DNA from: Nitriliruptorales bacterium
GTDB lineage: Bacteria > Actinomycetota > Nitriliruptoria > Euzebyales > JAHELV01
DNA length: 32,704 nucleotides
Reading direction: 5' to 3'
Assembly: GCA_024644015.1 (NCBI GenBank)
Contig: JAHELV010000015.1
Span: 1-32,704 of the forward strand
In this document: piece by piece, positions 16,943-21,568 of the stretch
How positions within the stretch are numbered: the first letter of the stretch is position 1
Layout: each line of letters begins with the position of its first letter
Notes under the pieces: generated by a model
What the model saw: only the letters and a program-made list of their open reading frames with translations
What the model was told of the DNA's origin: nothing
Databases searched by the model: none
Translations under genes and position numbers: made by a program

Positions 16943-17881
16943 TCACCGCCGGCTCGGCACGTGGCGATTCGCGCGGGACACCCGCTCTTCACGTAGGTAG
17001 GTCACATAGCTGTCGATGAACGCGCGTGCCGCCGGAGTCTGGGTACGGCGCGAATCCCAGGCCAGATACAGATCGAACCGTAGCGGGGCGCCGTCGGCCG
17101 ACGCGACCGGTCGCATCACGATGTCGTGCAGCTCGGGGTGGAGCACGTCGCCCGTCACACTGATGCCGACGCCCGCGGCGGCGAGCATCACCAGGGTCTC
17201 GGCGGAACTGCTCTGGTAGCGGATCTTGGGCTCGCAGCCCGCCAGCCTGCAGGCGGCCTCGAACAGCGTGTGGTTGAGGAACCGCCGGCCGTTGACCATG
17301 ACCGGCTGGCCGTGCAGTGCCTCGACGGACAGGGGGGCCGGGGACGAGGCCAGCTCGTGGCCGGCCGGGATGAACGCGCGGACCGTGACTGTCCGCACGA
17401 ACCGGCCCTGGGCGAAGTCGGGCAGCGGCGAGTTGATCAACGCCATCTCGCACTCGCGGTCCGCGAGGCGCGCACGTAGGCCGACGACGCCGTCCTCGAC
17501 CGAGACGATGCGGACCTCCGGATGGTCGGGCATCCATTCGGACATGAATCGTGCAAGCACCAGACCAGCCACCGTCGGCGTGACGCCCAAGCGCAGCGTC
17601 CATGCGTCTGGGGTGAGCGTCGCCGCCACGAACTCGTCCGCGGCGGCCAGCACTCGGCGTGCGGCGGGCAGTAGGGCGGCGCCGTCGGGCGTCGGCCGTG
17701 CGCCTGCGGGCCCGCGGGCGAGCAGTTGGAACCCGAGCGCGGCCTCGAGCTTGGCGACCCGGCGCGTCAGCGCGGCCTGCGAAACGAACAGCTCACGTGC
17801 GGCCGCCCGGAAGCCGCCGCAGTCAACGACGGCTACAAGGCTGTGCAGCGCGGTGAGATCCACATGATCCAGTTGTTGCAT
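16943..17881 (-). CDS. LysR-family transcriptional regulator of the homogentisate genes
   Basis: A 312-residue LysR regulator. The winged helix is at residues 5-65 (DLTALHSLVAVVDCGGFRAA, then LFVSQAALTRRVAKLEAALG). A periplasmic-binding-protein-like effector domain runs from about residue 92 (WTLRLGVTPTVAGLVLARF) to 295. The ATG at 17881 gives the family N-terminus and has GAGG just upstream; the open frame continues to 18274 through hmgA, which is a shadow. It is divergent from hmgA across 109 bases, the usual layout for a LysR activator and its target. The inducer is probably homogentisate or a related aromatic acid (inference). Two TTGCATCAC repeats at its start are candidate binding sites. 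Confidence 0.88.
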   Translation of the reverse strand: MQQLDHVDLTALHSLVAVVDCGGFRAAARELFVSQAALTRRVAKLEAALGFQLLARGPAGARPTPDGAALLPAARRVLAAADEFVAATLTPDAWTLRLGVTPTVAGLVLARFMSEWMPDHPEVRIVSVEDGVVGLRARLADRECEMALINSPLPDFAQGRFVRTVTVRAFIPAGHELASSPAPLSVEALHGQPVMVNGRRFLNHTLFEAACRLAGCEPKIRYQSSSAETLVMLAAAGVGISVTGDVLHPELHDIVMRPVASADGAPLRFDLYLAWDSRRTQTPAARAFIDSYVTYLREERVSRANRHVPSRR

Positions 17882-17990: not shown

Positions 17991-19364
17991 ATGGCGATGG
18001 CTGTCGACGCCGAGACCGCGGCCCGCGCGACCGGAGACGATGTCGTCGAACACCCGCCGTACCAGTCGGGGTTCGGTAACGAGTTCGCGTCCGAGGCGGT
18101 CGCGGGCGCGCTGCCGGTCGGGCAGAACAACCCCCAGCGGGCGCCGCTGGGGCTGTACACGGAGCAGTTGTCGGGCACCGCGTTCACGGTGCCAAACGCG
18201 CGCAACCGGCGTACGTGGATGTACCGGATCCGGCCGTCCGTGCGCCACGCCTGGCGCTTCACCGAGACCGCCAATCACGCGATCCGCACGGCGCCCAACC
18301 GAGAGGCGGACCCACCGATCGGGCAGCTGCGGTGGGATCCACCGCCGTTCCCGAACCACGCGACGACGTTCTTGACCGGCATGCACACGGTCGCCACGAA
18401 CGGTGACGCCCACACCCAGATCGGGATGGCGGCGCACATCTACATGGCGACCGATTCGATGACCGACACCTACTTCTACGACGCGGACGGCGAGCTGCTG
18501 GTCATTCCCCAAGATGGGCGGCTGCGGTTCGTCACCGAATGCGGTGTGCTGGTCGTGTCGCCGGGCGAACTGGTGGTCCTGCCGCGGGGCATGGTCTTCC
18601 GCGTCGAGCTGGTCGACGGCCGAGCGCGCGGCTATATCTGCGAGAACTACGGCAACTACCTCGAGCTTCCCGAGCGCGGACCGGTGGGCGCGAACGGCTT
18701 GGCCAACCCGCGTGACTTCCTCCATCCGGTGGCGGCGTACGAGGACGGTGACCGGCCCGGCGAGCTGTACGTCAAGTTCGACGGCCGGCTGTTCGTCGTC
18801 GAGACGGACTTCTCACCGCTCGACGTCGTCGGCTGGCACGGCAACCATGTGCCGTACAAGTACGACCTGTCGACGTTCACCGTGATCGGGTCGATCAGCT
18901 TCGACCATCCCGACCCATCGATCTTCACGGTGCTGACCTCGCCGTCGTCAGATCCCGGTGTGGCCAACGTCGACGTCGTGGCCTTCGCCGACCGCTGGCT
19001 GGTGGGGGAGCACACCTTCCGCCCGCCCTACTATCACAAGAACATCATGTCCGAGTTCATGGGCATCGTGCACGGCGTGTACGACGCCAAGGAGGAGGGC
19101 TTCCCACCGGGAGGCATGAGTCTGCACAACATGTACTTCCCGCACGGGCCCGATCACGACGCCTGGATCAAGGCGACGACCGGGGACCTCGAGCCCCAGA
19201 AGTTGTCGGACACGTTGTCGTTCATGTTCGAGACGCGCTACCCGCTGATCCCGACGGCGTACGCCGGGTCGATCCCGGCGCTGCAGGACGACTACCCGTC
19301 GGTGTGGCACGCCTTGGAGCGCCACTTCACGGGACCGACCACCGACGACGGCGCGCGGCCATGA
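17991..19364 (+). CDS. hmgA: homogentisate 1,2-dioxygenase
   Basis: A 457-residue protein of normal length for this iron enzyme, which opens the ring of homogentisate to maleylacetoacetate in tyrosine and phenylalanine breakdown. The N-terminal signature YQSGFGNEFASEA is at residues 24-36, GLYTEQLSGTAFT at 54-66 and ICENYGNYLELPERGPVGAN at 216-235. The iron ligands correspond to His349 and Glu355 in YYHKNIMSEFMG and His385 in FPHGPD. GAGGAGG four bases before the ATG at 17991 fixes the start (a second ATG follows two codons later). First gene of the operon with the unknown gene and fahA; its stop codon is the first base triplet of the tandem repeat array. Confidence 0.96.
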   Translation: MAMAVDAETAARATGDDVVEHPPYQSGFGNEFASEAVAGALPVGQNNPQRAPLGLYTEQLSGTAFTVPNARNRRTWMYRIRPSVRHAWRFTETANHAIRTAPNREADPPIGQLRWDPPPFPNHATTFLTGMHTVATNGDAHTQIGMAAHIYMATDSMTDTYFYDADGELLVIPQDGRLRFVTECGVLVVSPGELVVLPRGMVFRVELVDGRARGYICENYGNYLELPERGPVGANGLANPRDFLHPVAAYEDGDRPGELYVKFDGRLFVVETDFSPLDVVGWHGNHVPYKYDLSTFTVIGSISFDHPDPSIFTVLTSPSSDPGVANVDVVAFADRWLVGEHTFRPPYYHKNIMSEFMGIVHGVYDAKEEGFPPGGMSLHNMYFPHGPDHDAWIKATTGDLEPQKLSDTLSFMFETRYPLIPTAYAGSIPALQDDYPSVWHALERHFTGPTTDDGARP

Positions 19365-19517
19365 CCTCATGTAGCGGCAGCGGTAGGTCCCAACCTTGAC
19401 CTCATGTAGCGGCAGCGGTAGGTCCCAACCTTGACCTCATGTAGCGGCAGCGGTAGGTCCCAACCTTGACCTCATGTAGCGGCAGCGGTAGGTCTCAGCC
19501 ATGACCTCATGTAGCGG
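19362..19517 (+). repeat. 35-bp tandem direct repeat array between hmgA and the next gene
   Basis: Four 35-bp units start at 19362, 19397, 19432 and 19467, and a partial fifth (first 16 bases) at 19502. Units begin TGACCTCATGTAGCGG and continue CAGCGGTAGGTCCC. The first three are identical; the fourth changes near its end (GGTCTCAGCC). The first TGA is the hmgA stop codon. Within each unit GACCT and AGGTC are inverted and could form stem-loops, so the hmgA-fahA transcript would carry a series of hairpins. Each unit also contains ATG directly followed by TAG. The unit length is not a multiple of three and no spacers vary, so it is neither coding nor CRISPR. Confidence 0.95.
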
Positions 19518-19532
19518 TCACGGCGCGGCAGC

Positions 19533-20375
19533 ATGATGGCCGTGCCGACGTTGTTCTTGGATCTGGTCGACGACGCCGGCCTGTTCCCACCCGAGCGCCT
19601 GCCCATGCCCGCGGCCGTCGCACGCCACCGCGCCGACGCGGCCGTCGGCCACCCGGTGCTGACCCACCGCTTTCTGTGTCCTGCCAGCGAGCTGGATTCG
19701 CTGCGCGCCCAGCTCGAACGCGACGACAAGATACGGCTCGGGCTGATCGCAGACACGGGGACGGTGGGCCTGCCCGCCCGCTGCGCCTCGGTCGCCGCCG
19801 ACGCCCGACTGCGGTTGGAGACGGTCGAGATCGCGCTACCCGACGAACGGGTCGCCGCAGCCGCGCGCTCGCTCGTGCCGGTGTTGACCGCCATCGACGC
19901 GCTGGTGTTCGTCGAGATTCCCCGGGTGCCGGGGTGGCGGGATGCGCTCGACGTCGCGGCGGCCGCCGGCCTCGGTGCCAAGGTGCGCTGTGGCGGCGCG
20001 CGAGCCGATCTGTTCCCGGCCCCTCACGAACTGGCCGCGTTCGTTGTGGGCGCCGTTGCCCGTGGGGTCTGGTTCAAGGCGACCGCCGGGCTCCACCACG
20101 CCGTGCGGTACCGCGATCCGCGCACAGGCTTTCATCATCACGGATTCTGCAATCTGCTGGTGGCGGTGTGCCGGGCGGTGCAGGGTGCGCCGGTCTCCGA
20201 CGTGGCGGCGGCTCTGGCCGTCGACGACGCCGCCGAGGTGGCGGCGCAGGCACGTGCGGTGACCAGGTCGGTCGCGACGTCGGCGCGTGCGCTGTTCGTG
20301 GCCTACGGCTCGTGCAGTACCCGCGAGCCGGTCGACGACCTCGAGGCGCTCGACCTGCTGAACGGAGCCCGCTGA
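19533..20375 (+). CDS. conserved hypothetical protein of the homogentisate operon
   Basis: A 280-residue soluble protein that I recognise only as an actinobacterial hypothetical seen beside hmgA and fahA. It opens LFLDLVDDAGLFPPERLPMP. Conserved-looking blocks are HPVLTHRFLCPASEL (40-54), VFVEIPRVPGW (about 123-133), AKVRCGGARADLFPAP (about 149-164) and WFKATAGLHHAVRYRDP then GFHHHGFCNLLVAV (about 178-213). The alternating hydrophobic strands each ending in a charged residue suggest a TIM-barrel-like fold, with Lys in AKVRCGG and WFKATAG as possible active-site residues (inference). It is coupled to fahA by a one-base stop/start overlap (TGATG). It occupies the place of the missing maleylacetoacetate isomerase. 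Two ATG codons start it, with a poor binding site. Confidence 0.8.
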   Translation: MMAVPTLFLDLVDDAGLFPPERLPMPAAVARHRADAAVGHPVLTHRFLCPASELDSLRAQLERDDKIRLGLIADTGTVGLPARCASVAADARLRLETVEIALPDERVAAAARSLVPVLTAIDALVFVEIPRVPGWRDALDVAAAAGLGAKVRCGGARADLFPAPHELAAFVVGAVARGVWFKATAGLHHAVRYRDPRTGFHHHGFCNLLVAVCRAVQGAPVSDVAAALAVDDAAEVAAQARAVTRSVATSARALFVAYGSCSTREPVDDLEALDLLNGAR

Positions 20376-21568
20376 TGACCACCTGGGTGGCCGTGCCCGC
20401 TGGCTCGGGCTTCGGTGTCGACAACCTGCCGTACGGCGTCTACTCGCCGCCGGGTGCGCCCCCGCGGGTGGGCGTGCGCATCGGGAACCATGTGCTGGAT
20501 CTCGCCGCAGCGCTCGACGATCCGGTCTTTGCCGCTCCGACACTCAACCCGTTCATGGCGCAGGGGTCGCGGCGCTGGCGCACGGTGCGCGAGCAGGTCG
20601 TCGAACTGCTTTCGGACGAACGCCACCGTGCCCGGGTCGACGCCGCGCTGTCGCCGGTCGCAGCGGTTGTGCTGTCACTGCCGTTCGCGGTCGCAGACTT
20701 CGTGGACTACTACTCGTCGCTGCATCACGCCTGCAACGTAGGGCGCATGTTCCGTCCCGACGAGGAACCGCTCAAACCCAACTGGCGGCACCTGCCCGTC
20801 GGCTACCACGGACGGTCCGGCACGGTCGTGGCGTCGGGTACGCCCATCGTCAGACCGGCCGGACAGTGGAGGGCGCCAGGGGACGACGCGCCGTCGTTCG
20901 GGCCCACGCGACGGCTCGACATCGAGGCCGAGGTCGGGTTCGTCGTCGGGTCGCCCAGCCGAATGAGTCAACCGGTGCCGGTCGATCGCTTCGCCGAGCA
21001 CGTGTTCGGCGTCGTGCTCTGCAACGACTGGAGCGCGCGGGACATCCAGGCCTGGGAGTACGTGCCGCTCGGCCCGTACCTGGGCAAGTCGTTCGCCACG
21101 AGCATCTCGCCGTGGGTCGTGCCGCTGGCGGCGCTCGACGCCGCGCGCATCCGCCCGGTGGCGCAGGATCCCGAACCGCTGCCGTATCTGCGGGGCGGCG
21201 ACTGGGCGTTGGATCTCACGTTGGAGGTGCGGCTCAACGGCGAAGTGGTGTCACGCCCCCCGTTCGCCGACATGTACTGGACCGCCGCACAACAACTCGC
21301 ACACATGACCGTCAACGGCGCGAGCGTGCGGACCGGCGATCTGTTCGCCTCAGGGACGGTGTCGGGCGCCGTCCGCGAGCAGCGCGGCTCGCTGTTGGAG
21401 CTGACGTGGAACGGCACCGATCCGCTCGTGCTGGCCGACGGGTCCACGCGCACGTTCCTCGAGGACGGCGACATGGTGACGATCGCCGCGACCGCGCCGG
21501 GCGCCGGAGCTGGGTTGATCGACCTGGGTGATGTCACCGGCACGATCAAGCCTGCACGCCCGATCTGA
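20375..21568 (+). CDS. fahA: fumarylacetoacetase
   Basis: A 397-residue enzyme that hydrolyses fumarylacetoacetate to fumarate and acetoacetate, the last step of tyrosine breakdown. The N-terminal SH3-like domain covers about residues 1-105. Metal ligands correspond to Asp111 (FVDYYSSLHHACNVG, with His118 as the likely base), Glu184 and Glu186 (LDIEAEVGF), and Asp218 (CNDWSARDIQAWEYVPLGP); Lys238 lies in LGKSF. Length and motifs match the animal and bacterial enzyme. The ATG overlaps the preceding stop by one base, and the longer upstream frame is a shadow. A hairpin just after the stop closes the operon. Confidence 0.96.
   Translation: MTTWVAVPAGSGFGVDNLPYGVYSPPGAPPRVGVRIGNHVLDLAAALDDPVFAAPTLNPFMAQGSRRWRTVREQVVELLSDERHRARVDAALSPVAAVVLSLPFAVADFVDYYSSLHHACNVGRMFRPDEEPLKPNWRHLPVGYHGRSGTVVASGTPIVRPAGQWRAPGDDAPSFGPTRRLDIEAEVGFVVGSPSRMSQPVPVDRFAEHVFGVVLCNDWSARDIQAWEYVPLGPYLGKSFATSISPWVVPLAALDAARIRPVAQDPEPLPYLRGGDWALDLTLEVRLNGEVVSRPPFADMYWTAAQQLAHMTVNGASVRTGDLFASGTVSGAVREQRGSLLELTWNGTDPLVLADGSTRTFLEDGDMVTIAATAPGAGAGLIDLGDVTGTIKPARPI

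Follow-up and report, generated by a model that had tools for sequence, protein, structure and literature searches.

Which enzyme isomerises maleylacetoacetate in bacteria that lack glutathione? The homogentisate route of tyrosine breakdown is textbook knowledge and its classical isomerase, MaiA, requires glutathione (PMC6669923), while glutathione-free bacteria are left without this textbook enzyme. The window, by which we mean the whole analysed stretch of 32,704 nucleotides from a Nitriliruptorales bacterium, carries between hmgA and fahA an open reading frame (hereafter the ORF) whose family is a concrete candidate to fill this gap. We consider it fairly probable that the product of the ORF isomerises maleylacetoacetate and has no kinship with the glutathione-dependent enzymes of the MaiA/GST-zeta type, with the reaction itself deduced from the company that the gene keeps.

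Organisation of the locus

The features of the locus are collected in Table 1.

Table 1. Features of the hmgA-ORF-fahA locus (positions in the window)
Feature	Position	Strand	Remarks
LysR-type regulator, divergent from hmgA	16946..17830	-	PF03466 + PF00126
hmgA, homogentisate 1,2-dioxygenase	17991..19364	+	TIGR01015, 630.7 bits vs cut-off 510.75
35-bp tandem repeat, 4.5 copies, 97% identical	19362..19517	n/a	between hmgA and ORF
ORF, candidate maleylacetoacetate isomerase, 280 aa, undescribed family	19533..20375	+	ATG start, stop TGA 20373-20375
AKVRCGG codons (149-155): conserved K150, R152, G154	19977..19997	+	family conservation
FKATAGLHH codons (181-189; K182, T184-L187, H188), family signature motif	20073..20099	+	
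GSCS codons (259-262; G259, C261), candidate catalytic cysteine	20307..20318	+	
fahA, fumarylacetoacetase	20375..21568	+	TIGR01266, 438.4 bits vs cut-off 375.3

The ATG of fahA (20375-20377) overlaps the stop codon of the ORF by one base, just as the earlier note had read it, and a second ATG at 19536 is an equally possible start of the ORF. The same note had described a single operon, hmgA-unknown-fahA, and this description stands only for its second half: the 168 bp from hmgA to the ORF hold the tandem repeat, and because of this separation the tight coupling is restricted to the ORF and fahA. The hmgA stop codon falls within the first copy of the repeat, whose unit has no other occurrence in the window. 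Judging from its position, the LysR-type regulator likely controls the hmgA/ORF/fahA cluster. Two congeners (L011 and L012) carry genes for an MBL-fold hydrolase and an FAD monooxygenase in the interval between hmgA and the ORF, so the order in the window looks derived, shortened from hmgA-MBL-FMO-ORF-fahA. This gene pair, likely a feeder hydroxylase module, is recurrent in homogentisate clusters (L011 5280-7880; L012; L014; L113). Comparison of the ORF with three congeners gave identities of 0.73-0.77, 0.76-0.79 and 0.47-0.53 at codon positions 1, 2 and 3, and with about 75% identity at the first two positions against about 50% at the third, the protein is under purifying selection.

A widespread family linked to the homogentisate pathway

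Neither the ORF, nor any of 24 diverse members of its family, nor their profile has a match in Pfam, NCBIfam or the PDB; weak Pfam matches (ammonium transporter, CbiZ) were rejected as chance-level. Relatives are present in 13-14 of the 246 genomes of the window's phylum, the uncertainty coming from one weak match of the 14 (G008), which covers 44 residues with an E-value of 6e-4 and is doubtful. A second phylum, to which an Eremiobacterota genome belongs and which we call the Eremiobacterota group, has them in 71 of 118 genomes; they also occur on plasmids from Streptomyces, Rhodococcus, Pseudonocardia, Tsukamurella, Nonomuraea and the cyanobacterium Kovacikia, where the homologue is labelled 'hypothetical protein' in all six annotated regions examined. 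Viral contigs yielded no relative. The family is thus widespread and unannotated, and no paper describing it was found in the limited literature searched, so that a prior description elsewhere is possible.

What do these genomes have in common? Within the window's phylum an HmgA-type dioxygenase is encoded in all 14 gene-positive genomes, against 59 of 246 overall (Fisher p = 6e-10), and FahA in 13 of the 14, against 31 of 246 overall (2e-12); without the doubtful match the counts are 13/13 and 12/13, and the sole confident gene-positive genome without FahA has its ORF copy at a contig end. The Eremiobacterota group has FahA in 71/71 gene-positive and 4/47 gene-negative genomes (6e-28); since the genomes are related, all these p-values overstate independence. 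There, 68 of 72 ORF copies immediately precede fahA and share its strand (median gap 32 bp), and the remaining four are either separated from it by hmgA (two copies) or placed beside hppD with fahA elsewhere (two copies). The same arrangement, with the ORF directly upstream of fahA, recurs in Tsukamurella, Rhodococcus, Pseudonocardia, Streptomyces and a cyanobacterium. The Tsukamurella operon, hppD-hmgA-ORF-fahA, would cover every step from 4-hydroxyphenylpyruvate onwards, and the ORF family gene is the sole one in the isomerase position. Pairwise distances within the ORF family follow those of FahA (r = 0.84, 0/5000 permutations), and the ORF is accompanied by homogentisate dioxygenases of two distant types. 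This linkage and co-occurrence with hmgA/fahA, which the earlier note had put forward for survey, is strong and extends across phyla, and it makes the family a member of the homogentisate pathway.

Most clusters carry, in place of classical HmgA, a cupin-type HmgA-like dioxygenase (L017 2127-3326 and many other loci), which scores 48 bits against the hmgA cut-off of 510.75 and whose substrate, from its context, would be homogentisate.

Absence of the classical isomerase and the thiol background

The earlier note had seen no maiA-like gene in the window, and a search with TIGR01262 extended this absence to the whole genome, which is 97% complete. MaiA also stays below the cut-off in all 65 dioxygenase-bearing genomes or records and in all 118 Eremiobacterota-group genomes (182 genomes or records altogether). 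The ORF and 24 family members match neither TIGR01262 nor any other GST-type family, nor the profile of the mycothiol-dependent maleylpyruvate isomerase (DinB-like) in Pfam/NCBIfam. A published account of the homogentisate cluster in a Rhodococcus ruber strain that grows on homogentisate names hmgA and hmgB but no isomerase (PMC6498646).

The statement of the earlier note that actinobacteria generally lack glutathione needs qualifying with respect to other thiols, since the window's genome probably makes mycothiol, as judged from its gene content: an MshC-like match of 415.8 bits is under the cut-off and above the cysS score of the same genome, and Mca is over the cut-off. A mycothiol-dependent isomerase elsewhere in this genome is therefore possible, and in actinobacterial gentisate degradation mycothiol does serve the analogous isomerase step (PMC4360819). 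Two Streptomyces plasmids carry a gene for the N-domain of a mycothiol-type maleylpyruvate isomerase a few genes from ORF-fahA (L046 5376-6032; L047 3006-3662). In the Eremiobacterota group the check covered MshC and GshB, judged by score against CysS-level matches, and 39 of the 40 gene-positive genomes checked have only CysS-level MshC matches and no full-length GshB-like match, which favours a thiol-independent enzyme. The single exception has an MshC-like match below the cut-off. Cyanobacteria generally produce glutathione; since the family has members in a cyanobacterium as well as in producers of mycothiol, the presence of the gene does not require a lack of thiols.

Glutathione synthase proved unsuitable as a clean marker, as full-length gshB-like genes are found in gene-negative G008 and G308. 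The best-scoring subfamily for both is PRK12458, and a QEGLA gene adjoins the one in G008, so their link to glutathione is doubtful. The window's own genome contains a glutathione-synthase-like (TIGR01380) sequence broken across several frames (L115 ~2258-2900; G000:C94:26374-26871), either a relic or an assembly error.

Genomes that lack the gene

The family gene is absent from 18 of the 31 FahA-positive genomes of the window's phylum and from 4 of the 75 in the Eremiobacterota group, all of which also lack MaiA over the cut-off; the pathway can therefore run without it. HmgA directly adjoins FahA, with nothing in between, in some of these genomes of the window's phylum. One genus shows the gene intact (G006 and G012), decayed (G010) and absent (G008), so it is not universally required. 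At the loci of this genus (L016, L043 and L104), the decayed copy is without the core residues (L043 8723-9661, minus strand), and guaA abuts fahA where the gene is missing (L104). Two further copies beside fahA, at L038 (9404-10330) and L083 (8928-9764), lack C261 and other core residues, possibly through decay or changed function. Another enzyme may supply the isomerisation in FahA-positive, gene-negative genomes, or the step may proceed slowly unaided; a glutathione-dependent non-enzymatic bypass has been reported in mice (Fernandez-Canon 2002, as cited in PMC6669923).

Conserved residues and predicted fold

Conservation was counted over 50 non-redundant family members. D13, P20 and G204 are invariant, and P19, E128, K150, R152, K182, G186, L187, H188, G259 and C261 nearly so. 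Cys261 is present in 47/47 members that keep K150/R152/K182/H188, and the three members without it have other core residues missing too; this all-or-none retention suggests that these residues form one active site. Cys153 of the KVRCGG motif was rejected as the catalytic nucleophile because it is not conserved (C in 32 and T in 14 of the 50 members).

The earlier note had guessed at a TIM barrel, and structure prediction points the same way: two low-confidence AlphaFold models, for which two sequences in all were used (pLDDT 53 and 49, pTM 0.52 and 0.51), have strands and helices in alternation, and the closest structures in the PDB are mostly barrel enzymes, with TM <= 0.40. The models suggest a (beta/alpha) barrel.

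Proposed mechanism and alternative readings

The family travels with the tyrosine-breakdown pathway where MaiA is absent and therefore probably supplies the missing isomerase step; as this is the step that is left with no gene of its own in the clusters, isomerase is the best available inference. The earlier note had left the choice between a glutathione-independent isomerase and another accessory of the pathway, and of this the link to the pathway now stands firmly, with the reaction as our best reading of it. The enzyme is probably free of a thiol cofactor. HmgA would deliver maleylacetoacetate, the ORF (beta/alpha)-barrel protein would turn its cis double bond to trans, and FahA would then cleave the resulting fumarylacetoacetate. 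Cys261, where the last predicted strand ends, could add reversibly to the double bond and so replace the cofactor thiol, while K150, R152, K182 and H188 may bind the two carboxylates and the diketone. Alternatively, the chemistry may proceed via a lysine-stabilised dienolate with no covalent sulphur. We put forward more tentatively, as possible rather than probable, a new family of barrel enzymes for which thiol-cofactor-independent cis-trans isomerisation via a protein cysteine would be standard in much of Eremiobacterota and many actinobacteria.

Could the protein be a maleylacetoacetate isomerase that uses mycothiol or another low-molecular-weight thiol as cofactor, by analogy with the maleylpyruvate isomerase of Corynebacterium? 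The MshC-like gene and Mca of the window's genome would allow it, and the corresponding enzyme of the gentisate pathway is known to take mycothiol as its cofactor (PMC4360819). However, the family matches no known thiol-dependent isomerase family in Pfam/NCBIfam, and all but one of the 40 gene-positive genomes checked in the Eremiobacterota group lack MshC and GshB matches, so we regard such a cofactor as rather unlikely. The protein may instead be an accessory factor of FahA, HmgA or HppD, on the precedent of HmgX from the tyrosine cluster of Aspergillus fumigatus, which HppD needs (PMC3203155). Several ORF copies do adjoin hppD and an accessory role fits the gene loss in some lineages, but the constant partner is FahA rather than HppD, and the near-invariant charged residues together with the cysteine resemble an enzyme active site; on balance this role appears unlikely.

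Finally, an enzyme of this pathway need not be an isomerase: it might hydrolyse maleylacetoacetate, remove a toxic side-product such as succinylacetoacetate, or perform a step feeding homogentisate. The linkage to the pathway is tight while the reaction is deduced, and, to judge from the FahA-positive genomes that lack it, the gene is not indispensable, as would suit such roles. Against them, the clusters would otherwise offer no gene for the cis-trans step, and FahA is kept in every confident gene-positive genome but the one with the contig-end copy; we see this chemistry as quite improbable. If the isomerase assignment is right, many 'hypothetical proteins' would receive a correct annotation, and the family might become a source of a cofactor-free isomerase for biocatalysis.

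Comparison with known systems

HmgX resembles the ORF in being a small uncharacterised protein of a tyrosine-degradation cluster, encoded by a 771-bp transcript and with no known domain, although it acts at the HppD step; the two are compared here by description only (PMC3203155). MaiA/GST zeta (TIGR01262) shares with the ORF the proposed reaction and the place beside hmgA/fahA, whereas the ORF has no sequence match to it, a predicted barrel instead of the GST fold and no sign of glutathione dependence. The mycothiol-dependent maleylpyruvate isomerase from the gentisate pathway of Corynebacterium and Rhodococcus performs the same kind of cis-trans step in organisms that lack glutathione; the ORF, in contrast, has no Pfam/NCBIfam match and its family is found also in genomes without detectable MshC. 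Maleate isomerase belongs to the Asp/Glu racemase superfamily and uses a cysteine mechanism. Although the ORF does not match it in sequence and differs in substrate and predicted fold, its cofactor-free, cysteine-based cis-trans isomerisation provides a mechanistic model for the reaction that we propose.
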